A stretch of DNA of 64,000 nt from Pedobacter zeaxanthinifaciens (GTDB lineage Bacteria > Bacteroidota > Bacteroidia > Sphingobacteriales > Sphingobacteriaceae). The stretch lies in NCBI RefSeq assembly GCF_003313335.1, contig NZ_QMHP01000005.1, positions 1 to 64,000 of the forward strand, given 5' to 3'. A model generated the notes under the pieces. It saw nothing but the letters and a program-made list of their open reading frames with translations. It had not been told where the DNA came from and did no database searches. Both the position numbers and the translations under genes were made by a program. Shown here piece after piece: positions 13,209 through 32,125 of the stretch. The number at the start of each line of letters is the position of its first letter. The first letter of the stretch is position 1.

Positions 13209-15668
13209 ATGAGCTACTGTTTCCGCTGCTGTTTACTTTTGCTATTTTGCCTAAAAGCAGGCACTGCTTTGGCACAACAGTACACGCTATCGGGGAAAAT
13301 TACGGAAGCAAAAGGAACTGCAATCCCATTTTCTTCGGTTTATGTGCATACTACTACGCAAGGTACTTCATCCAATATTGATGGCCAGTATAAACTCAGT
13401 TTACCGAAAGGCCAAATTGAGCTATTGTTTAGTGCCGTTGGCTACGAAGACCGTAAAATTACACTAACGATAGCCGAAAATACGACACTTGACGTGGTGC
13501 TGGCACCTAAAATTTTCACGCTTAATGATGTGGTAATCAAGTCATCAAATGAAAACCGAGCCGAAGAAATTATTAAAAAAGTTATTACGAAGCGTAGCGT
13601 ATTGCTCAATGAAGTCCAAGCTTTTTCGGCAGAAGTTTATACCAAAGCCATGCAAAAACTACATAAAGCACCTAAACGCTTTTTTGGTAGAGATGTAGCT
13701 ACAATTTTAGAACTAGATAGTAACAGAAAAGGCATCATTTATCTTTCTGAAACAGAATCGAAGCTTGATTTTAAGCAATTTCACAAAATCAAAGAAGTGA
13801 TGATTTCTTCTAAAATTGCAGGTGATGATAAGGGCTTCAGCTTTAACAAAGCTTCCGATTTGATGGTAAACTTCTACGAAAACATCCTATTTGAAGACAA
13901 ACTTTGCGTTAGAGGTTTTGTATCGCCGGTGGCTGATAATGCCTTATCTTACTATGAATATAAACTGTTGGGAACCAATGAAGAAAATGGACAAATCATT
14001 AGTAAGATACAGGTTATTCCTAAACGGGCACACTCCCCTACCTTCAATGGAACTATATATGTAGTGAATGATAGTTGGAGAATCAGCGCTGTCAATCTTT
14101 CCATCACCAAAAAAAACGGAATGGAATTGATTGATACTTTAAACGTAAAGCAACAACTAGTTCAAGTAGGCAACGTTTTTGTGCCGCAATCTATACAGTT
14201 CAGCATTGCGGGGAAACTATTAGGCTTTCAGTTTTCTGGCTACGTTTTGGGGGTATTCAAAAATTACGATATCAAACCTACCTTCAACAAGAATTTTTTC
14301 ACAAAGGAGATTCTGAAAGTAGAAAAAACATCTAACAGAAAAGATCCCCTGTATTGGGAAAAACATCGTTCGGTACCGTTAACGGAAGAAGAATTTGAGA
14401 ACTACCTGAAAAAAGACAGTGTAAGTAAATTGAAAGCCTCACAAAGCTATCTGGATTCTGTTGATCAGGTGAAAAATAGGTTTAATGCCCGACAGATTTT
14501 AGTTACACCTTACATTTATTACCGTAGCTACAATAAAAAAAGTATCACTTTTGATCCGATAGCTACTTCTGTTTTTTTCAACACTGTTGAAGGACTGGCT
14601 TTAAAATATGCAGCAACCTGGCGACAAGGCTTTGATGATGGTAGGTACTACAGCATAAAGCCCGAATTGCGCTATGGCTTTGCTAACGATCACTTTAATC
14701 CAAACATTAAGGCTAAATACCTTTATGATCCCATCAAAAATGCAACTATTGCAATTGGATTTGGTTCGGAAGTGGCCAATTTAAACTCTCAGGAACAAAC
14801 CAATTTACTCCAAAATACCATTAATACATTGGTATTTGGGAAAAACGTAGCCAAATTTTACGAACGTAGGTTTTTTAACGTAGAAGCTTCAAGAGAATTT
14901 GCGCCAAGCTTTGAACTGAAATTAACGGCTGAATACGCCAACCGAAGTGCTTTAACAAATAGTAATTTCACCAACTTTGGAAAAAACTCCGAATTCACTT
15001 CAAACAATCCGTTTCAACCAAACAATGAAAATAGCCTGCTTTTCCCAAAGCATAAAGCATTTATTGTGAGCGGCACATTAGCTTATACAGTTGCGCAAAA
15101 ATACATTACCCGCCCCGACGGTCGTTTTTATATGGAAAGCAATTACCCAAGGATAGAGTTTAATTATAAACGTGGCATTAAGGGTGTTTTCGGTTCGGAA
15201 GTTGATTACGACTTTATTTCGGTAGAGCTTTATCAAAAAAAACTGCAACTTGGCATGTTGGGAAAGTCATCTTTACTGATAGGTGCCGGTAAATTTTTAA
15301 CTACAGAAAGTTTGAACTACCCGGACTGGAAGCACTTTAGAGCAAATCAAAGTATCGTATTTAACCCTGATGAGCGCTATTTTCAATTTTTGGATTTCTA
15401 TATCTTTAATACTACAAAACAATATTTTGAAGCACATTTTCAGCATAATTTTGGTTCATTTTTTTTAAACAGAATCCCCTTGTTAAGAAAATTGAAATTA
15501 GAGGAGATTATCGGTACAGCCTATCTGTCATCTCCAGAAAAAAGAAATTATACAGAATTTTATTTCGGCATCAAGCGTTTGAATTTTAGGATTCACTATG
15601 GCTACGCGTACGACAGGGATGAACGAATTAAAAAGGGCTTCAAGTTCTCGTATGGCTTTAATTTGTAA
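13209..15668 (+). CDS. DUF5686 / carboxypeptidase-like outer-membrane protein, second copy
   Basis: An 819-residue paralogue of the preceding protein, colinear over its length: signal peptide ending GTALAQQ, CarboxypepD_reg-like domain (YTLSGKITEAKGTAIPFSSVYV), shared segments such as KRFFGRDV, SSKIAGDDKGFSFNKASDL, FVSPVADNALSYYEYKLLG and a final LRKLKLEEI. The start is the ATG at 13209, the preceding TTG being the frame extension. Divergence between copies is large, so the duplication is old, and both reading frames are intact, which argues for separate roles. Confidence 0.9.
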   Translation: MSYCFRCCLLLLFCLKAGTALAQQYTLSGKITEAKGTAIPFSSVYVHTTTQGTSSNIDGQYKLSLPKGQIELLFSAVGYEDRKITLTIAENTTLDVVLAPKIFTLNDVVIKSSNENRAEEIIKKVITKRSVLLNEVQAFSAEVYTKAMQKLHKAPKRFFGRDVATILELDSNRKGIIYLSETESKLDFKQFHKIKEVMISSKIAGDDKGFSFNKASDLMVNFYENILFEDKLCVRGFVSPVADNALSYYEYKLLGTNEENGQIISKIQVIPKRAHSPTFNGTIYVVNDSWRISAVNLSITKKNGMELIDTLNVKQQLVQVGNVFVPQSIQFSIAGKLLGFQFSGYVLGVFKNYDIKPTFNKNFFTKEILKVEKTSNRKDPLYWEKHRSVPLTEEEFENYLKKDSVSKLKASQSYLDSVDQVKNRFNARQILVTPYIYYRSYNKKSITFDPIATSVFFNTVEGLALKYAATWRQGFDDGRYYSIKPELRYGFANDHFNPNIKAKYLYDPIKNATIAIGFGSEVANLNSQEQTNLLQNTINTLVFGKNVAKFYERRFFNVEASREFAPSFELKLTAEYANRSALTNSNFTNFGKNSEFTSNNPFQPNNENSLLFPKHKAFIVSGTLAYTVAQKYITRPDGRFYMESNYPRIEFNYKRGIKGVFGSEVDYDFISVELYQKKLQLGMLGKSSLLIGAGKFLTTESLNYPDWKHFRANQSIVFNPDERYFQFLDFYIFNTTKQYFEAHFQHNFGSFFLNRIPLLRKLKLEEIIGTAYLSSPEKRNYTEFYFGIKRLNFRIHYGYAYDRDERIKKGFKFSYGFNL

Positions 15669-17176: not shown

Positions 17177-20080
17177 ATGAGGAGAAACATCAAATATTTA
17201 TTTTTGCTCTTTTCGCTAACGCTGTTATCCGCAATTTACGCGACAGCAAGTGATATCCCTCGTATTGGAGTACCATATATACAAAACTTCGGCAAGGCGC
17301 TTTACGCCGCAGGCAACCAGAATTGGTCCATCGCAAAAAACAGCAAAAGCATTATGTTCTTTGCAAATTCAGGCGGACTTTTAAGCTACAATGGCAAATA
17401 TTGGCAAAAACATGAGTTGCCAAATAAACAGATTGTAAGATCAGTAGCCATTGGACATGATGGTTTGGTTTACACTGGCGGATTTGGTGAATTTGGCTAT
17501 TGGGATTACGAAAATAAAGAGCTACAGTACCATTCTTTAATTAAATTAATTCCTAAGTCAGCCAAACTTAGCGGCGAAGTTTGGAAAATATATGTCATTG
17601 GAAAAACGATATATTTTCAAACCTTTTCAGAAATCTTTGTTTACCAAAACAAAAAAATCACAATAATTAAAGGTGTAAACAACTTATTATTTACCCATAA
17701 GGTTAACAATAGGTTATTTGCCGAAGTAATAGACAATGGCCTATTTGAAGTAAAAGGGAAGCAACTCGTAAAGTTATTGGGCAGCGAGATATTAGGCAAA
17801 ACAGGGATACTCTCCATTTTACCTTTTAAAAATAACCAGTTGCTAATTGGCACAAGTAAAAATGGCCTTTTTTTATACGATGGTACAATTTTCACACCAT
17901 TTAACAGTCAGGCAAATAATTTCCTAAAAACCTACCAACTCAATAACGGCGCCAAAGTTTTCAATAATTATTATGCTTTTGGCACCATTCTAAACGGCGT
18001 AATTATTATTGATGAAAATGGAAATATTGTTCAAAGCATCAATAAAACTAGCGGCTTACAAAACAACACGGTTTTAAGCATCTACAACGATGATGAAAGT
18101 AATTTATGGGTGGGCTTAGATAATGGTATCGATCGGATTGAGCTTAACTCGCCCCTTTCTTTCTATTTTGATAAAACAGGAAGATTTGGCACCGTTTATT
18201 CAAGCTTAATTTATCAAGACAAAATTTACCTGGGAACCAATCAGGGTTTATTTTATAGCACTTGGAATAGCAGTTGGAAAAACATCAACAACAATTTCGA
18301 CTTTAAACTGATTCCTAATTCGCAAGGTCAGGTTTGGGATTTAAGTAATATTGATAACCAATTGATATGCGGCCATAACGATGGAACTTTTGCGGTTACT
18401 GGTGATAGGATTGAAAAAATATCCTCAATTAATGGCGGTTGGACACTGAAAAAACTCTCTTCTAACCCTAACGTATTAATTCAAGGAACCTATACCGGAT
18501 TGTGCATCTATACAAAAAATGCTTCCGGAAAATGGGTTTTTAGTCATAGGATAAATGGTTTTGGTGAACCTTCGAGATATGTTGAGCAAGATCATAAGGG
18601 CAATATTTGGGTTAGTCACGCTTACAAGGGGCTATACCGCATTACCCTAAGCAGCGATTTTAAGCAAGCCTTAAAAGTAAAGTATTTTGACGAAACCAAT
18701 GGATTACCAAATAGCTTTAACATCAATACCTTCAACCTAGAAAATAGAATAGTTTTCTCTACTGATTCGGGTTTTTACATCTACGATGACATTACCAACA
18801 AATTCAGCAAGTACAAGGAATTGAATCAAAAGTTGGGAAGTTTTAATACATCCAATAAAATTATCAAAGCAGGTACCGGAAAATATTGGTTCATCAATAG
18901 AGGCCGTATGGGGCTGAGTGATTTTATAGAATCTGGAAACATCAAGGTTGACTCGAACAGGTTCAATATTTTAGATGCCCGTATGGTGCAGTACTACGAA
19001 AACATCAGTCAAATTAGTAACAATATTTATTTGATCAGTGTTGATGACGGCTTTGCAATTTATAATGATGTACTAGCCGGATCAATGAAATTGAGTAAAA
19101 AGCTACCTCAGGTAGTTATCGGTAAAATTGAAGACATCACAGACAAATACAGTTTAATTGCTGAAAGTGGTGATGCTGAACAAAAAATAGAAATCCCTTT
19201 TTCGAGAAATAGCATAAGAATTTCATTTGCACTACCTTATTATCGCCTTGCAAAAATCAAATTTCAATACTATTTAGATGGTTACTCTAAGCAATGGTCG
19301 GATTGGAATACGGCAACACAAAAAGATTTTACCAATTTGAGTAACGGCACCTATATTTTTAAAGTGCGTGCTAAAATTGATGAAAATACTGTTAGCGCAG
19401 TAAGTGAAATAAAAGTGATCATTTTGCCGCCTTGGTATGCAAGTAATTGGGCATGGATTTGCTATCTAATTTTGGCAGTGGCCGGTTTAGTAATTGGCAA
19501 AAAGGTATATGAAAGCAAATTGCAAAGAGATCAACAAAAAATTGCACAAAAGCTACAGCAAGAAAAGGAAGAGTACCTAAAGAAAAAAGCTGAAGCAACT
19601 GAAAAGCAAATTAGCAGGTTGCAGACTGAAAAACTACAAACCGAATTAGCTGGCAAAAGCCGAGAACTGGCAAATTCGGCAATGAGCTTGGTTTACAAAA
19701 ATGAGTTACTGCAGAAAATCAGTCAAGAGCTAAATAAACTTCGTGAAAATAAGGATCACAAATCTCCGGAAGACCAATTGAGAAAGATTCAAAAAATTAT
19801 TGATGATGGCATGAACGATGAAAGGGACTGGAATTTATTTGAGAAAAGTTTCAATGAAGCACACGAAAGTTTCTTTAAAAAATTGAAAATTAACCATCCC
19901 GACTTAGTACCAAATGACCTTAAATTGTGTGCCTATTTACGGATGAATATGAGCAGCAAGGAGATGGCATCTCTATTAAACATCTCTGTACGTGGCGTTG
20001 AAATTAGAAGATATCGCTTACGAAAAAAATTGGCTGTGCCTCATGATAAGAATTTAACCGAGTTCTTAATCGAAATCTAA
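17177..20080 (+). CDS. Membrane sensor-regulator with propeller, Y_Y_Y and LuxR-like HTH domains
   Basis: A 967-residue one-component regulator. Signal peptide (1-26); a periplasmic beta-propeller of two-component-regulator-type repeats (for instance VLSIYNDDESNLWVGLDNGI and HKGNIWVSHAYKGLYRI); a triple-tyrosine (Y_Y_Y) domain at about 680-745 (IKFQYYLDGYSKQWSDW); one membrane segment at about 755-775; a coiled coil (785-860); and a C-terminal helix-turn-helix (about 900-965, MASLLNISVRGVEIRRYRL). It has no histidine kinase or receiver domain. Located directly upstream of susC, it most likely senses a glycan fragment and activates the following locus (inference). Confidence 0.93.
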   Translation: MRRNIKYLFLLFSLTLLSAIYATASDIPRIGVPYIQNFGKALYAAGNQNWSIAKNSKSIMFFANSGGLLSYNGKYWQKHELPNKQIVRSVAIGHDGLVYTGGFGEFGYWDYENKELQYHSLIKLIPKSAKLSGEVWKIYVIGKTIYFQTFSEIFVYQNKKITIIKGVNNLLFTHKVNNRLFAEVIDNGLFEVKGKQLVKLLGSEILGKTGILSILPFKNNQLLIGTSKNGLFLYDGTIFTPFNSQANNFLKTYQLNNGAKVFNNYYAFGTILNGVIIIDENGNIVQSINKTSGLQNNTVLSIYNDDESNLWVGLDNGIDRIELNSPLSFYFDKTGRFGTVYSSLIYQDKIYLGTNQGLFYSTWNSSWKNINNNFDFKLIPNSQGQVWDLSNIDNQLICGHNDGTFAVTGDRIEKISSINGGWTLKKLSSNPNVLIQGTYTGLCIYTKNASGKWVFSHRINGFGEPSRYVEQDHKGNIWVSHAYKGLYRITLSSDFKQALKVKYFDETNGLPNSFNINTFNLENRIVFSTDSGFYIYDDITNKFSKYKELNQKLGSFNTSNKIIKAGTGKYWFINRGRMGLSDFIESGNIKVDSNRFNILDARMVQYYENISQISNNIYLISVDDGFAIYNDVLAGSMKLSKKLPQVVIGKIEDITDKYSLIAESGDAEQKIEIPFSRNSIRISFALPYYRLAKIKFQYYLDGYSKQWSDWNTATQKDFTNLSNGTYIFKVRAKIDENTVSAVSEIKVIILPPWYASNWAWICYLILAVAGLVIGKKVYESKLQRDQQKIAQKLQQEKEEYLKKKAEATEKQISRLQTEKLQTELAGKSRELANSAMSLVYKNELLQKISQELNKLRENKDHKSPEDQLRKIQKIIDDGMNDERDWNLFEKSFNEAHESFFKKLKINHPDLVPNDLKLCAYLRMNMSSKEMASLLNISVRGVEIRRYRLRKKLAVPHDKNLTEFLIEI

Positions 20081-20334: not shown

Positions 20335-23300
20335 ATGAAAAAAATCTTTACAGAATTCTCTGTTATTGCCTGCTTTTTATTACTACTACTATCAGACGTT
20401 GCCTTTGCCCAAAACGTTACAGTTAAGGGTTCGGTAAAAGACGATCAAAACCTTCCGATACCGGGAGTTAGTGTAGTAGTGAAAGGAACAAGCAATGGCG
20501 TACAAACAGACGCGAGTGGAAATTACACGATTAGTGCGCCAAGCAGCGGCACCTTGGTGTTTTCCTTCATCGGTTTTAACAATCAAGAAATTGCAGTTGG
20601 TACAAAAACTACCATCAACGTAACCTTAACTGCCGCCAACAATGATTTACAACAAGTTGTAGTTGTTGGATATGGTACGCAACAAAAAAGAGACCTCACA
20701 GGTTCAATTGCCAGCGTTAAAGGGCAAGAAATCGAAAAATTAACGACTACTAACCCGATCAATGCGCTACAAGGTAAGGTACCAGGTTTAACTATTTCTA
20801 ACAATGGTGCTCCGGGATCTTCTCCAACTGTACGTATTAGAGGTGTAAATAGTACAAGTGGAGGCGCAGTAAATCCTCTTTACGTAGTAGACGGTCAATT
20901 GCAAGACAATATCGATTACTTGAACCCAGCGGATATTGAGAGTATTGATGTGTTAAAGGATGCATCTTCAATTGCCATTTACGGATTAAAAGGTGCAAAC
21001 GGAGTAATTGCCGTTACTACCAAAAAATCGGCCAAAGGAAAAACCACCATCAACTTGAGTAGCAATGTAGGTATACAAAAAGTTACTAATCAAATTGAAA
21101 TGGCTGATGCCGACGGTTTCAAAAAATTGTATTCGGCTCAACTAGCCAACTTAGGAGCTGCTCCGTTTGACTATACCAATTATAATGCAAATACAAATTG
21201 GCAAGATTTGATCTTTAGAAATGCGGTAATCAATACAAACAACTTAAGCATTTCTAACAACGGAGAAAAAAGCACTACCTTGATTAACTTAGGTTATAAC
21301 GATCAGGACGGTGTAATGAAATACAGTAATTACAAAAAATTTATTGCCCGCTTAAATGAGGAAATTAGAATTTCTGACAAGATAAAAGTTGGCGCTAACT
21401 TAACAGGTTTTCACTGGAGAAACGAGCCTAACACATCAAGTATCACTAATGCTTTATGGGCTGCGCCAATTGTAGCTGTACAAACTAACGATTTGTATAA
21501 CACTATGCCTTCTTTCCAAAGAGCGCAGGTTGGCAACCCTGTTTATGCGATGGAGCGTAACAGAAACACATCTATTAACCGCGGTTACAGAATCAGTGGT
21601 AATCTATTCGCTGAAATCAAATTCTTAAAAGATTTCACCCTTAATTCTACTGTTTATACTGATTTAGGATTCAATAATGCTAGAAGTTACTCGCCACTTC
21701 CTTTCAGAACAGTAAACTTAGGCGAAGGGGCAGCACCTACCGAAGTGGTATATGATAACTCGGTACGTACCACTGTGGGACAAAGTGCAAATGAATACAG
21801 AAAGTATCAACAAGATCATACCATTAGCTATAGCAAAAAGTTTGGACAAGATCACAAATTAAACGCAGTAGCTGGTTTTAACTCAGTTTACGAATCGTAT
21901 ACTACGTTAAGCGGCAGTAGAAGAGATACGACAGTTAATGTACCTAACAATCCAAACTTATGGTATTTGAATGTTGTAAATCAGAACAACCCTACGTTTA
22001 ACAGCGGAGGTGGTGAAGAGGAATCTAACGCCGGTGTTTTCTTAAGAACAAGTTATTCATATAAAGACAAGTACTTATTCAACGGTACAATTAGAAGAGA
22101 TGGAAACTCAAAACTAGCGAACCAAAATAGATGGCAAACCTTTGGAAGCGTTGGTTTGGGATGGGTTGTGAGTGAAGAAGGTTTTTTCAAGGATAATGTA
22201 AAAGGAGTTGATTTCTTCAAATTAAGAGGAGCTTATGGTTCTTTAGGTAATGCGGGAAGTATTCCAAACAACTTATTTGAAATAGGACTTACAACAGCTA
22301 GTAATGCAATATTTGGTGACCAAATATACACTGCTCTTTCAAACGCCTACCTTGTAAATCCGAATTTGCGTTATGAAAAAATAAAAGGCTTTGATGTAGG
22401 TTTTGATTTGAAAGCATTAAAAAATAGACTAAGTGCGGAAGTAAGTTATTTCGATAAAAAGACAGAAGACTTATTAACTACCTACACTTTGCCTGGACCT
22501 GCTGGAAATTACACTTACTATGATAATTTAGGTACTGTTACCAATAAAGGTATTGAGATTTCATTGGGCTGGAACGATAAAATTGGTAAAGATTTTAGCT
22601 ACAGCATCAATCCAAATTTCAGTTATGTAAGCAATAATGTAGAGGCTATTGGAAATACCACTAACTTCTTAATTACCAACGGCATTAATGTAACAGAAAC
22701 TGGAAGATCAATTGGATATTTTAGAGGATATAAACAAATTGGAATTTACCAATCAGCGGCTGATATGGCAAGAATGCCTGTAATGGCTGGTTCACAAATC
22801 GGTGATATCGCTTATGAAGACGTAAATGGGGATGGTCAAATCAACACTGATGACAGAACCTATTTAGGCTCTCCTTTTCCTCCATATTCTTACGGCTTAA
22901 GCATCACATTAAATTACAAAGGTTTCGACGCAACAATTGATGGACAGGGATTTGCAGGTCATAAAATTTATACCCAACGCAAAACTCAAGTGTTCGCTAC
23001 CTTAAACTACGAAGCTAACAGGTTAAACGCTTGGACCGCTCCTGGCTCAACTAACGTTGAACCGATTTTGGACAATACCAGAGCTAACAACTTCTTATTT
23101 AGTAATTATTTTATTGAACCTGGGGATTATTTCCGACTAAGAAATGTGCAACTTGGTTACACTTTCAACCAAGGTTTCATCAATAAATTAGCGATATCGA
23201 AATTGAGAGTTTTCGTAAGCGGACAAAACCTAAAAACTTGGAGCAAAACCACTGGTTATTCTCCCGAAGCAATTATTGGTAACCCAACAAGTTCAGGCGC

Positions 23301-23361
23301 TGACAATGGTCTCTATCCAATTACAGCGGTTTACACCTTTGGTTTAAATGTTACTTTTTAA
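20335..23361 (+). CDS. susC: SusC/RagA family TonB-linked outer-membrane protein
   Basis: A 1008-residue SusC-like transporter that imports oligosaccharides across the outer membrane with TonB energy. Signal peptide (1-26, DVAFAQN), CarboxypepD_reg-like domain (about 27-105), the conserved VVVVGYGTQQKRDLTGS TonB-box region, plug domain (about 120-230; VRIRGVNS, DPLYVVDG-type segment, GLKGANGVIAVTTKK), and a long C-terminal barrel with the terminal YTFGLNVTF. It is paired with a SusD gene 25 bases downstream. Specificity cannot be read directly; neighbouring enzymes suggest a beta-glucan. Confidence 0.98.
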   Translation: MKKIFTEFSVIACFLLLLLSDVAFAQNVTVKGSVKDDQNLPIPGVSVVVKGTSNGVQTDASGNYTISAPSSGTLVFSFIGFNNQEIAVGTKTTINVTLTAANNDLQQVVVVGYGTQQKRDLTGSIASVKGQEIEKLTTTNPINALQGKVPGLTISNNGAPGSSPTVRIRGVNSTSGGAVNPLYVVDGQLQDNIDYLNPADIESIDVLKDASSIAIYGLKGANGVIAVTTKKSAKGKTTINLSSNVGIQKVTNQIEMADADGFKKLYSAQLANLGAAPFDYTNYNANTNWQDLIFRNAVINTNNLSISNNGEKSTTLINLGYNDQDGVMKYSNYKKFIARLNEEIRISDKIKVGANLTGFHWRNEPNTSSITNALWAAPIVAVQTNDLYNTMPSFQRAQVGNPVYAMERNRNTSINRGYRISGNLFAEIKFLKDFTLNSTVYTDLGFNNARSYSPLPFRTVNLGEGAAPTEVVYDNSVRTTVGQSANEYRKYQQDHTISYSKKFGQDHKLNAVAGFNSVYESYTTLSGSRRDTTVNVPNNPNLWYLNVVNQNNPTFNSGGGEEESNAGVFLRTSYSYKDKYLFNGTIRRDGNSKLANQNRWQTFGSVGLGWVVSEEGFFKDNVKGVDFFKLRGAYGSLGNAGSIPNNLFEIGLTTASNAIFGDQIYTALSNAYLVNPNLRYEKIKGFDVGFDLKALKNRLSAEVSYFDKKTEDLLTTYTLPGPAGNYTYYDNLGTVTNKGIEISLGWNDKIGKDFSYSINPNFSYVSNNVEAIGNTTNFLITNGINVTETGRSIGYFRGYKQIGIYQSAADMARMPVMAGSQIGDIAYEDVNGDGQINTDDRTYLGSPFPPYSYGLSITLNYKGFDATIDGQGFAGHKIYTQRKTQVFATLNYEANRLNAWTAPGSTNVEPILDNTRANNFLFSNYFIEPGDYFRLRNVQLGYTFNQGFINKLAISKLRVFVSGQNLKTWSKTTGYSPEAIIGNPTSSGADNGLYPITAVYTFGLNVTF

Positions 23362-23386
23362 TTCACCCATATTAATTGTAATTAAA

Positions 23387-24946
23387 ATGAAGATATTTGA
23401 TAATAAAACTAGAAATTTCACTTTAGTAGCAGCCGCATTTGCCGTAGCTATTTTAGGTTCTGGTTGCAAAAAATTCCTTGATACTCAGAAACAAGGTTCA
23501 TATTCTACCGAAACATATCCTTTTTCTAACGGCGCAGGAGACAATCCTTATGATCAGTTCGTATTTGGCGCTTACAATGAGCTTCGTGCCTACAATGTAC
23601 ATGTTGACGGCTTTTTGGTGGCCACCAGTATCAGAAGTGATGATGCCGACAAAGGAAGTACACCAACCGATGGTGGTGCTGATGTAATAGGCATGGATAA
23701 TTTCACTGTAGTTCCAACTAACGGAAGATGTAATGCTTTATGGACTGGTTACTACAACCTAATTTCCAAAGCTAACCTTGTATTGGATCAAGTGGCAAAT
23801 AACAAAGACATTGTAGCTACTGAATCAGCAAAAATACAAGCTCAAGCTGAGGCTAGATTTTTAAGAGGTTATGCTTACTTTATGCTAGTGAGGTTTTTTG
23901 GAAGAGTACCCTTGGTAGATAAAGTGGTTGGTGCTTCTGATAGCAATATTCCACAGAGTACTCCGGCACAAGTTTATGCTTTTATTGAAAGCGACTTGCA
24001 ATTTGCTGCAGCTAACCTTCCTCTATCATGGCCTGCAAAATTTGTTGGTCGTTTAACTAGAGGTGCCGCTAACGGAATTTTAGCTAAAGTATACTTAACT
24101 CAACAAAAATGGGCAGCTGCAATGGCAGCCGCAAATATGGTGATGACGTCAGGTCAATATGACTTAAGTACTTCGTACGATGTAATTTTCAGAGAAACTG
24201 GCGAGAACAGTAAAGAGTCGGTATTTGAAGTTCAAGCTACCGCTAGTGCTGCTGTTCCAACTGCTAATGGCATTCAGCTAACCAGTCATCAAGGCGTGAG
24301 AGGATCAGGCGTTTGGGATTTAGGTTGGGGCTGGAACACGCCAAGTGTACAACTTGAAGCTGCTTACGAAGCTAACGATCCGCGTAAAGCTCGTACTATA
24401 CTTTACACTAGTACTGCAAGTACTCCAGGTTCAACGATCTATGGCGAAACCACACCTGTGGGATTACCAAACCCGAGATATAATAACAAAGCTTACACTA
24501 ACCCAGCCATTAGGGCATCTGTAGGTAACAGATTCGGTTACTGGATGAATGTAAGAATCCTGCGTTATGCAGATGTGGTTTTGATGTATGCCGAAGCAGC
24601 TAATGAAGTTGGTGGTGCGGCTAATACTACCGCAGCCTTAACTGCGTTGAACAGCGTACGTGCTAGAGCCAGACGCGGCGCACCTGCAGGTACTTTACCA
24701 GATATCACCGTAACTGATCAAGCGGCTTTAAGAACAGCAATTCAACAAGAAAGACGTGTTGAGCTAGCAATGGAATACGATAGATTTTTTGATTTAATCA
24801 GATGGGGTTCTACAGTTGCTCAAGCTGCAATGACTGCTGCTGGAAAAACAGGGTTTAGTTATGATAGGGATAAGTATCTTCCTATTCCACAAACTCAAAT
24901 TGACCTTAGTAAAGGTGTTTTAACTCAAAATTTTGGTTATAATTAA
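23387..24946 (+). CDS. susD: SusD/RagB family glycan-binding lipoprotein
   Basis: A 519-residue SusD-like lipoprotein (lipobox GSGC, Cys at 27, then KKFLDTQ). The helical TPR-like core shows NLISKANLVLDQV, AEARFLRGYAYFMLVRFFGRVPLV and the terminal ERRVELAMEYDRFFDLIRWG and KYLPIPQTQIDLS typical of the family. It caps the SusC transporter on the cell surface. The ATG at 23387 is used; a longer frame from 23348 would overlap susC and spoil the signal peptide. Confidence 0.97.
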   Translation: MKIFDNKTRNFTLVAAAFAVAILGSGCKKFLDTQKQGSYSTETYPFSNGAGDNPYDQFVFGAYNELRAYNVHVDGFLVATSIRSDDADKGSTPTDGGADVIGMDNFTVVPTNGRCNALWTGYYNLISKANLVLDQVANNKDIVATESAKIQAQAEARFLRGYAYFMLVRFFGRVPLVDKVVGASDSNIPQSTPAQVYAFIESDLQFAAANLPLSWPAKFVGRLTRGAANGILAKVYLTQQKWAAAMAAANMVMTSGQYDLSTSYDVIFRETGENSKESVFEVQATASAAVPTANGIQLTSHQGVRGSGVWDLGWGWNTPSVQLEAAYEANDPRKARTILYTSTASTPGSTIYGETTPVGLPNPRYNNKAYTNPAIRASVGNRFGYWMNVRILRYADVVLMYAEAANEVGGAANTTAALTALNSVRARARRGAPAGTLPDITVTDQAALRTAIQQERRVELAMEYDRFFDLIRWGSTVAQAAMTAAGKTGFSYDRDKYLPIPQTQIDLSKGVLTQNFGYN

Positions 24947-24956
24947 TTATTGAGAC

Positions 24957-25835
24957 ATGAAAGTTAACAACTTAAATAAATATAAAATTGCCTTTCTACT
25001 AGCTACCGCTGTGGTTGGTACATCATGTAAAAAAGATGGTAATCCAAATAATTTGCCTGATGTTGATGCATCAAGTTACGCTGGTAAAATTGATGGTTAC
25101 GCTAGTTCAGATGAGGTTTATCCGAATAACTTGGTTGCTTATTGGTCTTTTGAAGATAATAGCAATGAACAGAAAACCAGCTCAACACCTACCGCAACAG
25201 CTAATGCCAGTTTTATAGCAGGAGTTAAAGGTAAAGCGTTGAAGCTAACAGCTGGCTACGTTTACTTTGCTAAGCAATTTGATGCTTTTAAAAGTGATGC
25301 ATTAAAAAACTTCACCATTAGCAGTTGGGTACAGATTGCAAATAATGGCTCTAAAAAAACCATGTTAATGACAATTGCACGTCCTAACACGTTTTTGGGA
25401 AGTTTAGATTTCCGTTTAAACACAAATAGCACCTCAACTACATTTCTAGGGATAGGCCCAAGATTCACGACCTTAGGTGGAGGCAGCCAAGATAATCTTA
25501 ATGCCAATTTATCTCCTGCATTTGGTGCAACTGTTTGGACTCACCTCGTACTAACCTACAATGGAGCTACTGGTATCTTCAAAGTATGGGCCGACGGAAA
25601 AGATGTTGGTTCTTATAATAGCCGTGGTACTGGAAATAATGTATTTAAATCTTACGAGCCAGGTGAGTTCATCATCGGTGCTCATTACAACAACATCCCA
25701 GGCAAAGAAATCGTTGGATCAGCAGCTGATTTTGTAGCTATGACGGGCAGTGTTGATGAATTAAGAATTTATAATACAGTTCTTCAAGATGCAAGTATTA
25801 AAGCACTTTACAATCTAGGTAGAGCAGGTAAATAA
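24957..25835 (+). CDS. LamG-domain surface lipoprotein
   Basis: A 292-residue lipoprotein (signal ending VVGTSCKKDG). From about residue 60 it is a concanavalin A-like/LamG (Laminin_G_3) domain: NNLVAYWSFEDNSNEQ, FTISSWVQI, WTHLVLTYNGATGIFKVWADGK and a closing SVDELRIYNTVL. Such proteins in SusCD loci usually act as extra surface glycan binders; that role is inferred. It begins ten bases after susD and is followed by a strong hairpin terminator, so it closes the first transcript of the locus. Confidence 0.9.
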   Translation: MKVNNLNKYKIAFLLATAVVGTSCKKDGNPNNLPDVDASSYAGKIDGYASSDEVYPNNLVAYWSFEDNSNEQKTSSTPTATANASFIAGVKGKALKLTAGYVYFAKQFDAFKSDALKNFTISSWVQIANNGSKKTMLMTIARPNTFLGSLDFRLNTNSTSTTFLGIGPRFTTLGGGSQDNLNANLSPAFGATVWTHLVLTYNGATGIFKVWADGKDVGSYNSRGTGNNVFKSYEPGEFIIGAHYNNIPGKEIVGSAADFVAMTGSVDELRIYNTVLQDASIKALYNLGRAGK

Positions 25836-25848
25836 TACTATAAAACAG

Positions 25849-25880
25849 AAAAAGGCACAGTAGCAATGCTGTGCCTTTTT
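25849..25880 (+). terminator. Strong intrinsic terminator inside the glycan locus
   Basis: A perfect 12-bp stem (25849-25860 with 25869-25880), loop of eight, right arm ending in TTTTT. It separates susCD-LamG from the enzyme genes and suggests that the surface proteins and enzymes differ in transcript level. Confidence 0.88.
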
Positions 25881-25898
25881 ATCAAATATCAATTAAGT

Positions 25899-27569
25899 AT
25901 GCGATTTTTTCAGATGTTACAGCGAGGTGGTAATATTTTACTACTTCCTCTTATTTTACTAACTATAGGATGCAAAAAAAATAATGCTGAAAGCATCACA
26001 AATTCGGATACTTCGCTTTATTTTACCATTAACGGCAACAATAACGGAACGCTTAAATACACGAATTTAACAGGTAAGCCCATTGCCAAATTTACATTTA
26101 CTGAACCCATTAATACCGCAACCACTTCCAACGGAATTTCATTTAAAGATGCTGACGGAGTAGTTATTCCAATTAACATCACTTTTGATGACAATAATAA
26201 AATTGTAAATGTAAGCCCACAAAATAACCTTTCCTCGTTTGCTACATATACGCTTAGTGTAAATGATCAACTAAAGTCTTCAACGGGCGGCAGATTGATC
26301 AATCCCGTTAGCATTACGCTTGTTTCTGGAATGGATGATACCGATAAATTTCCACGAATAAGCGATGACGAACTGCTTACTTTAGTTCAAAAGCAAACTT
26401 TCAAATATTTCTGGGATTTTGGGCACCCTGTAAGCGGAATGGCCCGCGAAAGAAATACCTCTGGCAATACAGTAACCTCCGGTGGAACTGGTTTTGGCGT
26501 AATGGCCATGGTGGCCGGTATCCATCGAAATTTTATCACTAGAAATGATGGACTAGCAAGAGTTCAACAAATAGTTAATTTTTTAAAAACTGCCGACCGT
26601 TTCCACGGCGCTTATTCACACTGGATAGATGGAAACACAGGGAAAGCAATTGCTTTTAGCACCAAAGACAATGGAGGCGACTTAGTAGAAACTTCCCTAC
26701 TAATGGCAGGATTAATTAGTGCCCGCCAATACTTCAATGGCACAACAACTGCCGAAACCAACTTAAGAAATGACATTACACAATTATATAACCAAGTAGA
26801 ATGGAGCTGGTACCGTAATGGAACTAACTCACTCTATTGGCATTGGAGCCCAACCTACAACTGGGACATGAACTTAAAAATACAGGGCTGGAATGAGTGC
26901 CTAATCACTTATGTTTTAGCTGCATCTTCCACTACCTACGGTATTTCTAAAGCTGTTTATGATGAGGGATGGGCCAGAAACGGCGCTATGAAAAATGGCA
27001 ACACTTACTACGGTGTTCAATTGCCCTTAGGCAATGCCGGAGGAGGACCATTGTTTTTGTCACACTATTCATTTTTGGGAATCAATCCAAATGGGTTAAT
27101 TGATGCTTATGCCAACTACGAAACACAAAATAAGGCACATGCCATGATCAATTACAATTATTGTGTGGCCAACCCTGCAAAAAATAATGGCTATAGCGCT
27201 AATTGTTGGGGATTAACTGCAAGCGATATACCAGGAGGCTACACAGCAAGTTCTCCTACCAACGACCGTGGTGTAATTGCCCCTACCGCAGCACTTTCTT
27301 CATTTCCATACACGCCAGAGCAATCCATGGCCGCATTAAAGTTTTTTTACTATAAACTAGGAGATAAAATTTGGAAAGAATATGGATTTGTTGATGCATT
27401 TAACCTTAACGATCCGTGGTTTGCTTCTTCACACCTAGCTATTGATCAAGGTCCTATCATCGTTATGATAGAAAATTATCGAAGCAAGCTCATTTGGAAC
27501 TTGCTCATGAGCGCTCCTGAAATTAAAACAGGTATGACTAACCTCGGTTTTTCAAGTCCTAATTTATAA
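25899..27569 (+). CDS. Glycoamylase-fold (PF10091, GH144-like) lipoprotein with Ig-like domain
   Basis: A 556-residue lipoprotein (LLTIGCKKN). Residues about 30-150 look like a Big_5-type Ig domain; from about 160 the PF10091 alpha/alpha toroid follows: LVQKQTFKYFWDFGHPVSGMARER, GGDLVETSLLMAGLISARQY, HWSPTYNWDMNLKIQGWNECLITY and SHLAIDQGPIIVMIENYRS. Characterised members of this fold include the GH144 endo-beta-1,2-glucanases of Bacteroidota. The ATG at 25899 is used since the upstream ATG at 25866 lies inside the terminator. A shorter paralogue follows directly. Confidence 0.88.
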   Translation: MRFFQMLQRGGNILLLPLILLTIGCKKNNAESITNSDTSLYFTINGNNNGTLKYTNLTGKPIAKFTFTEPINTATTSNGISFKDADGVVIPINITFDDNNKIVNVSPQNNLSSFATYTLSVNDQLKSSTGGRLINPVSITLVSGMDDTDKFPRISDDELLTLVQKQTFKYFWDFGHPVSGMARERNTSGNTVTSGGTGFGVMAMVAGIHRNFITRNDGLARVQQIVNFLKTADRFHGAYSHWIDGNTGKAIAFSTKDNGGDLVETSLLMAGLISARQYFNGTTTAETNLRNDITQLYNQVEWSWYRNGTNSLYWHWSPTYNWDMNLKIQGWNECLITYVLAASSTTYGISKAVYDEGWARNGAMKNGNTYYGVQLPLGNAGGGPLFLSHYSFLGINPNGLIDAYANYETQNKAHAMINYNYCVANPAKNNGYSANCWGLTASDIPGGYTASSPTNDRGVIAPTAALSSFPYTPEQSMAALKFFYYKLGDKIWKEYGFVDAFNLNDPWFASSHLAIDQGPIIVMIENYRSKLIWNLLMSAPEIKTGMTNLGFSSPNL

Positions 27570-27581
27570 AACAACACACAA

Positions 27582-28904
27582 ATGAAAATTAAGTATCTGA
27601 TTCCAATCCTCGCCCTTTTAGGTAGCTGTTCGGTCAGTAGACAAACCGAATCCAAAAAATTAACAGATGATGAATTACTAACAGAAGTTCAAAAACAGAC
27701 CTACAAATACTTTTACGAAGGTGCTGAGCCTATATCTGGCCTTTCTAGAGAACGTTACCATAGCGATAACATCTATCCGCAAAACGATAAAGATATTATA
27801 GCTACCGGTGCTAGCGGATTTGGAATGATGGGTACATTAGTAGCAATTGAACGACAATTCATTACACGAGAACAAGGTTTAGCGCATTTGAAAAAAGGAC
27901 TTGATTTTTTAGCAAAGGCCGACCGATTTCATGGTGCTTGGGCGCATTGGATGTACCCTAGCGGAAAAGCAAAACCTTTTGGTAAAAATGATGATGCAGG
28001 AGATTTGGTAGAAACCTCATTTCTAGCACAAGCATTAATTTGCGTTAGGCAATATTATGCCAACGGCAATGCCGAAGAAAAAGCTTTAGCACAAAAAGCA
28101 GATGAACTATGGAAAGGTATAGACTGGAACTTTTACAGAAAAAATGGCCAAAATGTGCTGTATTGGCATTGGTCGCCAACAGCTGAATGGAAAATGAATT
28201 TTGCCATTACAGGTTATAACGAATGCTTAATCACCTACATATTAGCGGCTTGCTCTCCTACACATGGTGTACCTGCAGAAGTTTACCATCAAGGTTGGGC
28301 AAAAAGCGGTGCAATTAACACCAACATTACGATGTATGGCCACCCCATTAAATTAAAACATAATGTTGTTGGCGAAAGTGTTGGGCCTCTTTTTTGGGCG
28401 CATTACTCCTATTTAGGCCTAAATCCAAAAGGACTAAAAGATAAATATGCTGATTACTGGCAAGAGAACAGAAATCAAACCTTAATCAATTACGACTATG
28501 CCATTGCCAACCCAAAAGGATATAAAGGCTATGGTAAAAATTCATGGGGCCTAACGGCCAGCTACTCTGTAAAAGGTTATGCGGCACATATGCCCAATGA
28601 AGATTTTGGCGTAATTAGCCCAACTGCTGCCTTGTCCTCTTACCCATATACGCCAAAAGAAAGCATGCAGGTAATTAGAAACTTGTACGATAATATGAAA
28701 GATAAAGTTTGGGGAGAATTTGGCTTTTATGACGCTTACAGCGAAACAGCCAACTGGTATCCGAAACGATATATCGGCATAGACCAAGGGCCAATTGTGG
28801 TAATGATTGAAAATGGCCGCACCGGACTTTTATGGAAGCTTTTTATGAGCGCTCCCGAAATTCAACAAGGATTAACGAAACTAGGTTTTACCTACTCAAA
28901 ATAA
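27582..28904 (+). CDS. Glycoamylase-fold (PF10091, GH144-like) lipoprotein, compact
   Basis: A 440-residue lipoprotein (ALLGSCSVS) made only of the PF10091 toroid: LLTEVQKQTYKYFYEGAEP, SGLSRERY, GDLVETSFLAQALICVRQYY, HWSPTAEWKMNFAITGYNECLITYI and IGIDQGPIVVMIENGRTGL. It shares the acidic residues of the previous protein's core but lacks the Ig domain. Twelve bases separate it from its paralogue and nine from the GH3 gene. One of the pair may act as the endo- and the other as a disaccharide-releasing enzyme (inference). Confidence 0.9.
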   Translation: MKIKYLIPILALLGSCSVSRQTESKKLTDDELLTEVQKQTYKYFYEGAEPISGLSRERYHSDNIYPQNDKDIIATGASGFGMMGTLVAIERQFITREQGLAHLKKGLDFLAKADRFHGAWAHWMYPSGKAKPFGKNDDAGDLVETSFLAQALICVRQYYANGNAEEKALAQKADELWKGIDWNFYRKNGQNVLYWHWSPTAEWKMNFAITGYNECLITYILAACSPTHGVPAEVYHQGWAKSGAINTNITMYGHPIKLKHNVVGESVGPLFWAHYSYLGLNPKGLKDKYADYWQENRNQTLINYDYAIANPKGYKGYGKNSWGLTASYSVKGYAAHMPNEDFGVISPTAALSSYPYTPKESMQVIRNLYDNMKDKVWGEFGFYDAYSETANWYPKRYIGIDQGPIVVMIENGRTGLLWKLFMSAPEIQQGLTKLGFTYSK

Positions 28905-28913
28905 TAATCATAC

Positions 28914-31202
28914 ATGAAGAGAATCATCATAGTTTTAGCGATAGCCTCTACCCTATCTGCATTTGCACAAAAACCAAAAACAACTACCGAAAAACAAAAA
29001 ATGGATGCTTTCATTAGCAACCTAATGTCGAAGATGACAGTTGACGAAAAAATTGGTCAGCTTAATTTGGTAACAGGTGGTGAAGCCACAACTGGTGCGG
29101 CTGTGAGCACTGGCGTAGAGTCAAAAATTGCAAAAGGGAATGTGGGTGGAATTTTCAGCTTAACTACTCCACAAAAGATTAGAAAGGCACAAGAAATCGC
29201 TATGCGTAGCCGATTAAAAATACCTTTGATTTTTGGACAGGATGTGATACACGGTTACAAAACCACTTTTCCAATACCTTTGGCTTTAGCAGCAAGTTGG
29301 GACCTCCCGATGATTGAAAAAACGGCAAGGGTAGCAGCTACTGAAGCTACTGCAGATGGCTTAAACTGGACATTCTCTCCTATGGTTGATTTAGCCCGAG
29401 ACCCACGTTGGGGACGTGTAGCAGAAGGAAGCGGAGAAGACCCTTACCTAGGAGCTGAAATTGCAAAAGTGATGGTAAAGGGCTATCAGGGCAACGATTT
29501 AAAAGCTGTAAATACCATGATGGCCTGTGTAAAGCACTTGGCTTTGTACGGTGCGGCAGAAGCTGGTAGAGACTATAACACTACCGACATGAGCTTTGAC
29601 AGAATGTATAACGAATACCTACCGCCGTATAAAGCAGCTATTGACGCGGGTGCAGGTAGCGTGATGGTTTCTTTTAATGATATCAACGGTGTTCCTGCCA
29701 CGGCAAACAAATGGTTACTTACCGATTTATTAAGAAAAGAATGGGGTTTTAAAGGATTTGTAGCATCTGACTATACTGGTGTAAGCGAATTAATCGCTCA
29801 TGGCTTAGGGGATCTAAAAACGGTATCAGGTCTTGCTTTAAAGGCTGGTACGGATATGGATATGGTAAGCGAAGGTTTTTTAACCACCTTGAAACAAAAT
29901 CTTAACGAGGGTAAGGTTACCATCGCCCAAATTAACATGGCTTGCCGATTAATTTTAGAAGCAAAATATAAATTGGGCTTATTTGACGATCCTTTCAAAT
30001 ATTGTAATGATGAACGTGCAGCAAAAGAGATCCTATCTCAGGAAAATTTAAAATTTGCTCGTGAAGCCGCTACAAAAACCTTTGTATTGCTAAAAAACGA
30101 CCAACAGACTTTACCACTACAACGTAAAGGCACCATTGCTTTAGTTGGTCCGTTAGCAAATACTGCATCTAATATGCCTGGTACTTGGAGCGTAAACGCA
30201 GATATGTCAAAAGTTCCTACGTTGCTACAAGGCTTGAAAGAAGTAGCTGGAAATAATGTTAAAATTACCTATGCCTTAGGTTCTAACCTCATTGGTGATC
30301 CTAACCAACAGATTTGGGGTACCGCTCACGGCCGCGACATTCCTCGTGACAACCGACCTGAAAGTGAAATTATTGCAGAAGCTGTAAAAGTGGCTGAAAA
30401 AGCTGATGTTGTAGTAGCAGCTTTGGGAGAAGCTTCGGAAATGAGTGGTGAAAGCTCTAGCCGTACAGATATTGGCATTCCTGATACGCAACGACGTTTG
30501 TTAGCAGCTTTATTACAGACTGGAAAACCGGTAGTTTTAGTGCTATTCGCTGGTCGTCCGATGACTTTGACTTGGGAACAACAGAATGTGCCAGCTATAC
30601 TGAACGTGTGGTTTGGCGGTGTTGAAGCAGCAAAAGCTATTGGTGATGTTTTATTCGGCGATGTTAATCCTTCAGGAAAAATTACCATGACCTTCCCGCA
30701 AAATGTTGGACAAATTCCTTTGTACTATGCGCATAAAAATACAGGCCGACCGCTGGGAGATAGAAAGTGGTTCACAAGGTTTTGGTCTAATTATCTAGAT
30801 GTAAGCAATGATCCATTATATCCGTTTGGATATGGTTTAAGTTACACAACCTTTACTTATGGCGATATAAAAATTAGTAGTAACAATTTAAAACCTGGGC
30901 AAAAAATTAAGCTAACTACCACCGTTACCAATAGTGGAAAGTACGCAGGTGAAGAAGTGGTACAGCTATATGTACGAGACCTAGTTGGGACAAGTACAAG
31001 ACCGGTTAAAGAGCTAAAAGGCTTCCAAAAAATCAGCTTACAGCCTGGAGAAACTAAAACCGTAACCTTTGAAATTGGTGAAGAGATGTTGAGATTTTAT
31101 AACAGTCAATTGAAATACGTTTCGGAAGCCGGGGATTTCAAAGCATTTATTGGTACCAATTCTAGAGATGTAAAGGAAGTTGATTTTAAATTAGTGAAAT
31201 AA
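28914..31202 (+). CDS. bglX: GH3 beta-glucosidase, BglX-like
   Basis: A 762-residue secreted GH3 enzyme (signal peptide ending SAFAQK). The N-terminal barrel holds IFGQDVIHGYKTTFPIPLALA, DPRWGRVAEGSGEDPYL, KHLALYGAAEAGRDYN and the nucleophile region GFKGFVASDYTGV (Asp at about 286). The alpha/beta sandwich (about 400-600) has ALGEASEMSGESSSRTDI with the acid/base area, and a C-terminal fibronectin III-like domain completes the family layout. It probably hydrolyses oligosaccharides released by the two GH144-like proteins to glucose in the periplasm. Confidence 0.96.
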   Translation: MKRIIIVLAIASTLSAFAQKPKTTTEKQKMDAFISNLMSKMTVDEKIGQLNLVTGGEATTGAAVSTGVESKIAKGNVGGIFSLTTPQKIRKAQEIAMRSRLKIPLIFGQDVIHGYKTTFPIPLALAASWDLPMIEKTARVAATEATADGLNWTFSPMVDLARDPRWGRVAEGSGEDPYLGAEIAKVMVKGYQGNDLKAVNTMMACVKHLALYGAAEAGRDYNTTDMSFDRMYNEYLPPYKAAIDAGAGSVMVSFNDINGVPATANKWLLTDLLRKEWGFKGFVASDYTGVSELIAHGLGDLKTVSGLALKAGTDMDMVSEGFLTTLKQNLNEGKVTIAQINMACRLILEAKYKLGLFDDPFKYCNDERAAKEILSQENLKFAREAATKTFVLLKNDQQTLPLQRKGTIALVGPLANTASNMPGTWSVNADMSKVPTLLQGLKEVAGNNVKITYALGSNLIGDPNQQIWGTAHGRDIPRDNRPESEIIAEAVKVAEKADVVVAALGEASEMSGESSSRTDIGIPDTQRRLLAALLQTGKPVVLVLFAGRPMTLTWEQQNVPAILNVWFGGVEAAKAIGDVLFGDVNPSGKITMTFPQNVGQIPLYYAHKNTGRPLGDRKWFTRFWSNYLDVSNDPLYPFGYGLSYTTFTYGDIKISSNNLKPGQKIKLTTTVTNSGKYAGEEVVQLYVRDLVGTSTRPVKELKGFQKISLQPGETKTVTFEIGEEMLRFYNSQLKYVSEAGDFKAFIGTNSRDVKEVDFKLVK

Positions 31203-31263: not shown

Positions 31264-31302
31264 AAAGACTTACGAAGCTTTTGAAACTTAGTAAGTCTTT
31301 TT
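31264..31302 (+). terminator. Hairpin terminator after GH3 gene
   Basis: AAAGACTTAC (31264-31273) pairs with GTAAGTCTTT (31291-31300), followed by more T. The sequence belongs to a family of ACTTACGAAG hairpins also seen at 44994-45028 and 54750-54782. Confidence 0.8.
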
Positions 31303-31348: not shown

Positions 31349-32125
31349 ATGAAAAAAATAAACGCATTACTAATCCTCATCCTATTTAATGTTAGTGCTT
31401 TTGCACAGGATTTTTCCCTGTTCAAAAAAGAGGAATTTATTACCAATGGCGATACCATAAAATACCGTATCCTTTATCCGAAGAATTTCGATGCGGCAAA
31501 AAAATATCCAGTGGTACTGTTTTTACATGGACGCGGAGAGAGCGGCAATGATAATCAGAAGCAGTTGACGCATGGCGCAAAAATGTTCCTTAACGAAAAC
31601 TTCAGAAACAGTAATGAAGTGATTACTATTTTCCCGCAATGTTCTGAAAATAGCTATTGGGCAAATGTTGAAATTGAATCGGTACAAGACAAACGCTTTT
31701 TCACTTTTGTAAAAGGCGGACAACCGACTAAATCAATGTCACTTTTATTGGCATTTACAGATACGTTTTTCAAGAATAGCTTTGTTGACGCAACGAAAAT
31801 TTACGTAGGCGGCCTGTCCATGGGCGGCATGGGCACCTTCGAAATTTTAAGAAGAAAACCGAACACCTTTGCCGCTGCGTTTGCTATTTGCGGTGGAGAC
31901 AATGTAGAGAATGTAAAGAAATATAAAAATGTACCACTTTGGATTTTTCATGGTGGGCTGGATGACGTGGTAACGCCACAGTTTTCATATGGTGTATATC
32001 GAGAGTTAAAAAAACTTGGACATGAACCTAAATTTACCGTTTATTTAAAAGCTAACCATAACAGTTGGGACAGTGCATTTGCAGAGCCAGAATTATTTCC
32101 TTGGTTATTTTCGCACCATAAATAA
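31349..32125 (+). CDS. Secreted alpha/beta hydrolase (esterase/peptidase-like)
   Basis: A 258-residue secreted protein (signal peptide ending SAFAQD). Hydrolase motifs: VVLFLHGRGESGNDNQKQL (oxyanion region), the nucleophile elbow YVGGLSMGGMGTFEI (Ser in GLSMGG), IFHGGLDDVV (Asp) and LKANHNSW (His). This pattern fits the phospholipase/carboxylesterase and prolyl oligopeptidase-like group common near glycan loci, where some members remove acyl groups. It has its own transcript because a terminator separates it from the GH3 gene; its link to the locus is by position only. Confidence 0.88.
   Translation: MKKINALLILILFNVSAFAQDFSLFKKEEFITNGDTIKYRILYPKNFDAAKKYPVVLFLHGRGESGNDNQKQLTHGAKMFLNENFRNSNEVITIFPQCSENSYWANVEIESVQDKRFFTFVKGGQPTKSMSLLLAFTDTFFKNSFVDATKIYVGGLSMGGMGTFEILRRKPNTFAAAFAICGGDNVENVKKYKNVPLWIFHGGLDDVVTPQFSYGVYRELKKLGHEPKFTVYLKANHNSWDSAFAEPELFPWLFSHHK

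Follow-up and report, generated by a model that had tools for sequence, protein, structure and literature searches.

Positions 20335-31202 of the stretch of DNA considered here (the window: 64,000 nucleotides of Pedobacter zeaxanthinifaciens, contig NZ_QMHP01000005.1, positions 1 to 64,000 of the forward strand) hold six genes of the same direction with short gaps, which the list of open reading frames (ORFs) and family profiles identify as those for a SusC importer, SusD, a LamG lipoprotein, two PF10091 (GH144) proteins and a BglX-type GH3 enzyme. A previous, sequence-only reading of the window had given this gene content, with the PF10091 proteins as lipoproteins and the LamG protein as a binder, and had seen an extra Ig-like domain on one of the two GH144-like proteins; ORFs and family matches bear out the former, and a PF13205 (Big_5) match beside PF10091 the latter. 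Loci of this kind are already known and are common among soil bacteria, and the reading of this one as directed at beta-1,2-glucan is an ordinary one. What is new is that among relatives the locus is a mosaic in which the Ig domain of the enzyme is co-inherited with the importer. As to cause, the evidence suggests docking of the Ig domain as the best reading, with linked recombination without contact as its main rival.

The features described between 17177 and 32125 are all on the + strand. The gene for SusC, a TonB-dependent importer of what is termed type A below (20335-23361; TIGR04056, 819 bits), starts with the part for the signal peptide and a CarboxypepD_reg domain (20335-20664), which is independent of importer type in relatives. 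There follow the genes for the SusD lid lipoprotein (23348-24946; CKKFLD; PF07980, PF14322), for a LamG (ConA-like, Laminin_G_3) lipoprotein with the lysine signature discussed below that is probably a surface glycan binder (24957-25835; CKKDGN; PF13385), and for the GH144 lipoprotein with the N-terminal Ig-like (Big_5) domain (25866-27569; CKKNNAES). This Ig-like domain, the proposed docking domain, is encoded by 25986-26345, is modeled with a pLDDT of 93.4 and tracks importer type in relatives. The compact, CpSGL-type GH144 lipoprotein (27582-28904; CSVSRQ) is devoid of the surface-type signature, and the predicted GH3 BglX-type beta-glucosidase (28914-31202), with a signal peptide and an Fn3-like end, is probably periplasmic. 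The PF10091 scores, 240 bits for the Ig-fused and 274 bits for the compact protein against a cut-off of 27, exclude a chance match, and these two are the only PF10091 matches in the genome at E <= 0.001.

The locus may extend beyond these six genes, to an upstream SusR-like membrane regulator (17177-20080), which has a Reg_prop propeller, Y_Y_Y and a weak C-terminal HTH match with no histidine kinase domain found among its Pfam matches, and to a downstream secreted alpha/beta-hydrolase, an esterase with a signal peptide discernible by eye (31349-32125; PF00326, PF02230; 122 bits to the 3doh esterase). Homologues of the regulator (over at least 60% of its length) are present in 54 of 80 related loci and of the esterase in 44, with some loci ending short of the relevant position. 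With susC and susD adjacent, glycoside hydrolases in line and a regulator nearby, the arrangement is that of a Sus-type polysaccharide utilization locus. Of 101 genomes from the same family 76 have PF10091 matches, as do 105 of 296 from the phylum, and 34 of the 101 have two strong matches at most 2 kb apart. GH144 loci for beta-1,2-glucan are among the abundant loci in Bacteroidetes (PMC6499787). PF10091 matches are also found within reading frames of some 2900 residues in the same family (G017:C2:1112354, G012:C9:40067 and G098:C41:18645); these are perhaps cyclic glucan synthases, a guess from their length, in which case some relatives would be makers of the substrate.

Of 329 matches to the Ig enzyme the best 80 gave the loci compared, which are therefore biased to near relatives; the closest are from Pedobacter. 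Their recurrent order is regulator-susC-susD-lamG-GH144Ig-second GH144-(extra genes)-GH3-esterase, and the importer genes come in divergent types with about 40% SusC identity between them. Type A was taken as at least 55% identity to the window SusC and type B as at least 52% to the SusC of locus L077, both cut-offs being of our own choosing; for tandem importers, the copy closest to the Ig enzyme was taken. Analyses were of 74 of 81 loci (2701 pairs), of the 63 that remain when 11 with other importer types are set aside, or of the 31 of the 81 in which each of the eight genes occurs once and in full length. Every tree is a quick one without bootstrap.

For the 31 loci, the partial correlation of Ig identity with that of SusC, controlling for regulator, compact GH144 and catalytic domain, is 0.86 (0 of 2000 permutations as high), and it is small for other segments, at 0.22 for the esterase, 0.19 for GH3 and 0.11 for the catalytic domain of the Ig enzyme. 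On the trees of these loci, importer type changes once each for SusC, SusD, LamG and the Ig domain; the changes number 4 for the regulator, 5 for GH3, and 3 each for the catalytic domain, the compact GH144 and the esterase. In the set of 74, catalytic domains are at least 85% identical in 259 pairs. The Ig domains of 28 of these pairs are at most 50% identical, 27 of which also have SusC at most 50%, and all 27 of the 27 pairs with SusC at that level have the Ig domain at that level too; for the exception, L093/L097, SusC identity is printed as 50, just above the cut-off. (The 27-28 discordant pairs derive from few loci, L066, L072 and L093/L097, and are not independent.) For the same 63 loci the importer changes between A and B once on the Ig tree versus 6 times on the catalytic tree, the latter having 5 changes with 74 rows. 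By the approximately unbiased (AU) test, in which the groups were named after the data were seen, the catalytic-domain data reject a single A clade (p 5.4e-9), and the Ig-domain data reject a grouping of L066 with its catalytic relatives (p 0.00012). No Ig domain mismatched to its nearest importer occurs among the 63 typed loci, and co-inheritance of Ig domain and importer is well supported among the loci examined. The sequence-only reading had seen in the extra domain a sign of endo-action at the surface; from the co-segregation and the trees, the domain more probably marks pairing with the importer.

Individual loci make the mosaic tangible. The natural chimera L066 (P. xixiisoli) is close to L059 in regulator (84%), compact GH144 (95%) and esterase (87%), with only 42/41/27% identity in SusC/SusD/LamG, for which it stands at 82/78/76% to L091. 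Its relatives are A-type in the regulator, in the catalytic domains of both GH144 enzymes and in the N-domain of SusC, and its importer block is of type B. L072 is the reverse chimera, with B-lineage catalytic domains in both enzymes, a B-lineage SusC N-domain and a block of type A. A third case, L125, has a catalytic domain 81-83% identical to those of L095 and L098, to which its Ig domain has 32-37% and its SusC 38% identity; the Ig domain is 56-59% identical to those of the type B loci nearest in SusC. L065 has a regulator 94% identical to that of L067, but SusC/SusD/LamG at 85/88/84% to the window. In L144 (G013:C8:36000-55900), a type A and a type B importer are in tandem ahead of one type B Ig-GH144; the tandem A/B arrangement is also seen, in part, in L076 and L087, and such tandem cassettes are a possible intermediate of exchange. 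The GH3 gene comes in two allele groups independent of importer type (that of L066 is 91% identical to L069 and 66% to L059; L091 and L094 are also concerned).

The block has its edges inside susC, at about residue 111, and inside the gene for the Ig-fused GH144, at about residue 155. In 40-residue steps, the nearest neighbor by identity shares the importer type of the locus in 62-63 of 63 cases over GH144 residues 36-155 and in 52-56 over residues 156-555; for SusC, the match is 51-56 of 63 over residues 27-110 and 62-63 of 63 over residues 111-310, the last step tested. The SusC N-domain has 4 type changes on the 31-locus trees versus 1 each for plug and barrel, and the SusC edge in L066 and L072 runs in opposite directions. 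Between the GH144 proteins of L066 and L059, identity in 30-residue segments is 23-47% up to the one starting at 128, rises to 83% at 143 and is 97-100% in all segments printed from 158 onward. Transferred to the window, with edges inferred from relatives and set in the same 40-residue steps, the exchange block is 20665-26330, comprising SusC plug and barrel, SusD, LamG, an intergenic hairpin and the GH144 Ig domain; the protein parts among these would come together on the outer side of the membrane.

Where these lipoproteins reside is hinted at by the residues after their lipidated cysteine. Among proteins with a recognized lipobox, lysine or arginine at Cys+2/+3 is present in 59 of 61 Ig-GH144 proteins and 1 of 35 compact CpSGL-type ones; for SusD the figures are 18/20 with type A and 10/11 with type B, for LamG 20/22 and 41/46, and for phosphoesterases of some of the loci 0/6. 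(The lipobox search, with a simple pattern, recovered 20 of 31 type A and 11 of 50 type B SusD proteins, the type B set having 10 with lysine or arginine and 1 with an acid at +2..+6.) A lipobox was seen in 2 of 57 GH3 proteins and 0 of 45 esterases. The signature groups the Ig-GH144 with SusD and LamG, leaving the compact GH144 apart, and Ig-GH144 is likely on the cell surface; the surface place formerly proposed for the Ig-bearing enzyme thereby gains suggestive support. The signal of the compact GH144 suggests the periplasm, where imported oligomers would be met. Surface-export signals known from the phylum pair lysine with acidic residues, as in C-X-K-(D/E)2 (PMC5080379); CKKNNAES of the window Ig enzyme has the lysine signature and not the full signal.

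Both window GH144 proteins keep, at matching offsets, all seven motif positions D135, D139, E142, E211, F268, Y330 and D400 (CpSGL numbering), and so both have the acid and base candidates E211 and E142 as well as the clan residues F268 and Y330. E211 acts as general acid, E142 is the likeliest base, and activity survives mutation of D400 (PMC12102758). Both have the PF10091-type (alpha/alpha)6 domain related to CpSGL, the founder of GH144 from Chitinophaga pinensis (5GZH, 5GZK). The compact protein scores 646 bits to 5gzh, and in a quick tree of 95 of 173 catalytic domains, with long-branch warnings for 4gl3 and one L131 row, it lies in the CpSGL clade with 4qt9 and 3eu8 (29 rows, support 99); the Ig-fused protein belongs to a separate clade (39 rows, support 100), and 4gl3 to a third group (support 87 inside 85). 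The proposal that the compact enzyme may work on shorter chains had been drawn from its compactness alone, and phylogeny points elsewhere, to a CpSGL type in the clade of a characterized endo-glucanase. The Ig-fused protein, outside that clade, also differs from CpSGL in missing an 8-residue stretch after the RER motif. Its model is confident (pLDDT 91.7, pTM 0.86), and the catalytic part matches 4gl3 (Z 65.6, 56% identity), 5gzk of CpSGL (Z 63.9, 54%), 5z06 (Z 61.5, 49% over 406 residues) and 8xul of XcSGL (Z 52.1, 30%). 5Z06 is BDI_3064 of Parabacteroides distasonis, a GH144 enzyme that releases sophorose (PMC8861115); fold and catalytic domain are common to the two, but the alignment covers the Ig-GH144 model from residue 124 on, and most of the Ig domain is without a counterpart.

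The GH3 protein exceeds the BglX equivalog cut-off (NF011678, 934 bits against 666), aligns end to end with 5xxl (1056 bits), which we take to be BT_3567, and with 3u48 (JMB19063), and keeps DYTG and GESSSR, presumably with the roles these motifs have in GH3 enzymes. It is BglX/BT_3567-like, with its specificity predicted. BglX-type GH3 enzymes are broad in specificity, a breadth that lends something to the notion, returned to below, of a different target glycan. Family membership, kept catalytic residues and the GH3 partner nevertheless uphold the substrate first proposed, and beta-1,2-glucan is the best-supported one that can be predicted. A B. thetaiotaomicron cluster of this kind has a beta-glucosidase with a preference for longer beta-1,2-gluco-oligomers (PMC8861115). 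With that cluster and the Bacteroidetes GH144 loci (PMC6499787) the window has in common a SusC/SusD-type locus with GH144 and GH3; what it adds is the tandem of two GH144 clades, the LamG binder, the adjoining esterase and the exchangeable importer block.

Accessory genes were counted in loci with enough flank. The esterase is present with 16 of 18 type A and 26 of 38 type B importers (42/56), a calcineurin-like phosphoesterase lipoprotein with 6/18 and 0/38, and a GH43-like protein with an F5/8 domain with 0/18 and 28/38; of the three, the window carries the esterase only. Examples of the phosphoesterase, seen with type A importers only, are L063:10975-11961, L069:10974-11957 and L073:14313-15317; it could strip phosphate substituents from bacterial glucans. 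The GH43-like proteins (e.g. L077:11035-12780 and L105:10953-12698) hardly resemble any solved GH43 in sequence. Type-dependent accessory genes hint at differently decorated glucans, though they track kinship too. That periplasmic glucans lose succinyl or phosphoglycerol groups to the esterase and to the phosphoesterase of relatives is only a lead, to which a search for phosphoglycerol glucan phosphodiesterases added nothing of use. Next to the GH144 locus L138 is a sulfatase-like protein (12474-13940; judged by eye from its first residues), in agreement with a marine GH144 locus variant with a sulfatase (PMC6499787).

The hairpin within the block, at the boundary of importer and enzyme genes (25849-25880), is terminator-like, with a 14-bp stem that contains G-C pairs and is followed by a T run, in the gap between lamG and the Ig-GH144 gene, and termination there is predicted. 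Folding of 25836-25898 gives -20.6 kcal/mol (z -5.78; 0 of 200 shuffles as good). Since the ORF start at 25866 is inside this hairpin, the true start of Ig-GH144 is probably further downstream, the ATG at 25899 or 25914. Similar hairpins are present at 47 of 69 lamG-Ig-enzyme joints where 0.4 are expected; at other joints the counts are 0/71 for susC-susD, 1/72 for susD-lamG, 0/71 for Ig enzyme-second GH144, 0/46 for compact GH144-next enzyme gene, 16/41 for GH3-esterase and 4/54 for regulator-susC. The recurrent joint hairpin may lower enzyme relative to importer transcript and is a possible setter of importer and enzyme dosage; no description of a hairpin between importer and enzyme genes was found in the excerpts of PMC10994844 or PMC7366714. 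A 10-bp stem with a T run 3' of GH3 (31264-31300), seen in sequence and fold, makes the esterase probably a separate transcript. A sigma-70 scan gave 27 sites versus 35.1 in shuffles, and no promoter is claimed because of this deficit. Well upstream, at 10560-15668, are two adjacent large similar-looking proteins, the second being DUF5686 with a CarboxypepD_reg start (767 bits).

The way in which the parts would work together can be set out as follows. LamG protein and Ig-GH144 would be on the cell surface with SusC/SusD, and Ig-GH144 would cut linear or cyclic beta-1,2-glucan there. SusCD would take in oligomers, the compact CpSGL-type GH144 would cut these further in the periplasm, and GH3 would yield glucose; removal of ester groups by the downstream esterase is the weakest of the putative steps. 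The Ig domain would anchor the enzyme to its cognate SusCD/LamG complex in the manner of the levan utilisome, where Ig-like domains of binding protein and hydrolase are on the SusC lip (PMC7618045), and it is by this precedent that the window Ig domain is read as a docking domain. Because of such docking, SusC plug and barrel, SusD, LamG and Ig domain would be inherited and exchanged as one block, leaving the catalytic domain and the other genes free to have other histories. That the Ig domain changes with the importer and not with its own catalytic part does suggest a physical fit of the two, and importer-specific docking within a beta-1,2-glucan locus is a reading we hold by a slight preponderance.

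Several observations weigh against it. Exchanges are few, being the 5 or 6 changes on the catalytic trees. The Ig domain of L072 is 42-55% identical to those of other A loci and 40-46% to those of B loci, such that its A placing rests on the tree. The genome of L144 (G013) has two PF10091 matches only, leaving its A importer without a same-type Ig partner, which counts against strict pairing. With the catalytic domain controlled, the Ig domain hardly tracks SusC within type A (partial r 0.24, 89 of 2000 permutations as high), although within type B it does (partial r 0.44, 0 of 2000). The Ig domain adjoins lamG and could simply travel along with it. The structure nearest to that of the Ig enzyme, 4gl3, bears the title of a putative glucoamylase, and endo action of the Ig clade is putative, exo action being possible as well. 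Further, 9 of 29 unassigned lipobox ORFs likewise have lysine or arginine at +2/+3, and only 27 of 61 Ig enzymes have an acid at +2..+6, a signature weaker than C-X-K-(D/E)2.

The explanation that competes most seriously, to which we would give a substantial but minority share, is linkage only, with the Ig domain in a fast-diverging stretch between recombining flanks, the SusC N-domain and the GH144 catalytic domain, and with no importer contact. It accounts for the block edges equally well, both of which fall where importer type stops mattering, with 69-80% conservation between types past the GH144 edge (in the 40-residue steps), and gut Bacteroides offer a precedent, in that homologous recombination at core genes on the flanks swaps entire gene sets (PMC8845570). 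The history of the importer genes within type A also differs from that of the Ig domain: window and L059 have 85% identity in SusC and 70% in Ig, and window and L058 66% and 72%. Linkage is thus not absolute, but within-type matching is loose. What linkage leaves without an account is the split of the Ig domain along precisely the lines of the importer types, a split not seen in the catalytic domain of the same protein. Closeness is not sufficient either, as the SusC N-domain, in the same gene as the plug, is independent of type, and the want of any Ig/importer mismatch among the typed loci is also in disfavor of linkage.

An Ig domain that binds carbohydrate, tuned to the glycan variant of its importer (chain length, cyclic form or decoration), is an unlikely alternative to which the accessory genes that differ by type lend some credence, as does the alteration of fructan use by a divergent SusC/SusD pair in B. 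thetaiotaomicron (PMC5967196). However, those accessory genes track kinship as well, the Ig alignment has no conserved tryptophan (about 4 of 38 rows, by eye), and, though this is weak evidence, the nearest folds to the Ig model among the 50 matches listed (Z 9.0-11.6) are Ig-like domains of CopC, S-layer, TssM and L,D-transpeptidase proteins and of one alpha-amylase. (No utilisome binding protein is among those 50 matches, which excludes nothing.) Targeting of another beta-glucan or a mixed glycan, for which a B. xylanisolvens cluster with a GH144 homologue and a beta-1,2-galactosidase (PMC11739564) offers a precedent, is improbable given that both GH144 proteins keep the seven functional positions, that the compact one falls in the CpSGL clade and that the B. 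thetaiotaomicron cluster has a beta-1,2-gluco-oligomer beta-glucosidase.

Returning to docking, the four predicted surface parts (SusC, SusD, binding lipoprotein and glycoside hydrolase) have counterparts in the levan and dextran utilisomes (PMC7618045), but the Ig-like domains described there belong to the binding protein, and the window complex is a putative one, suggested indirectly by co-segregation. Importer pairs that diverge while their surroundings are shared are also known from the fructan locus of B. thetaiotaomicron 8736, with its divergent susC/susD pair (PMC5967196), and from the four ragAB alleles of P. gingivalis (PMC11817032); unlike these, the window-type block includes LamG and an enzyme domain and leaves the SusC N-domain behind. 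A limited literature search found no prior report of importer-block exchange that includes an enzyme domain.

For the wider family of Sus systems, it is tentatively proposed, at somewhat less than even chance, that Ig-like domains of their enzymes are importer-specific adaptors and that the contact set (SusC plug and barrel, SusD, binder and adaptor) is swapped as a plug-in unit with edges running through two genes. This would give a role to Ig-like domains fused to surface hydrolases, and the two GH144 proteins would have a testable division of labor. The natural chimeras L066, L072 and L125, with L144 as counter-case, are available for testing docking. If the proposal is true, co-inheritance would be a sequence-based handle on which Sus surface proteins form one complex, and a co-inherited block, readable from sequence, would predict which proteins touch in utilisomes whose structures are yet to be solved.

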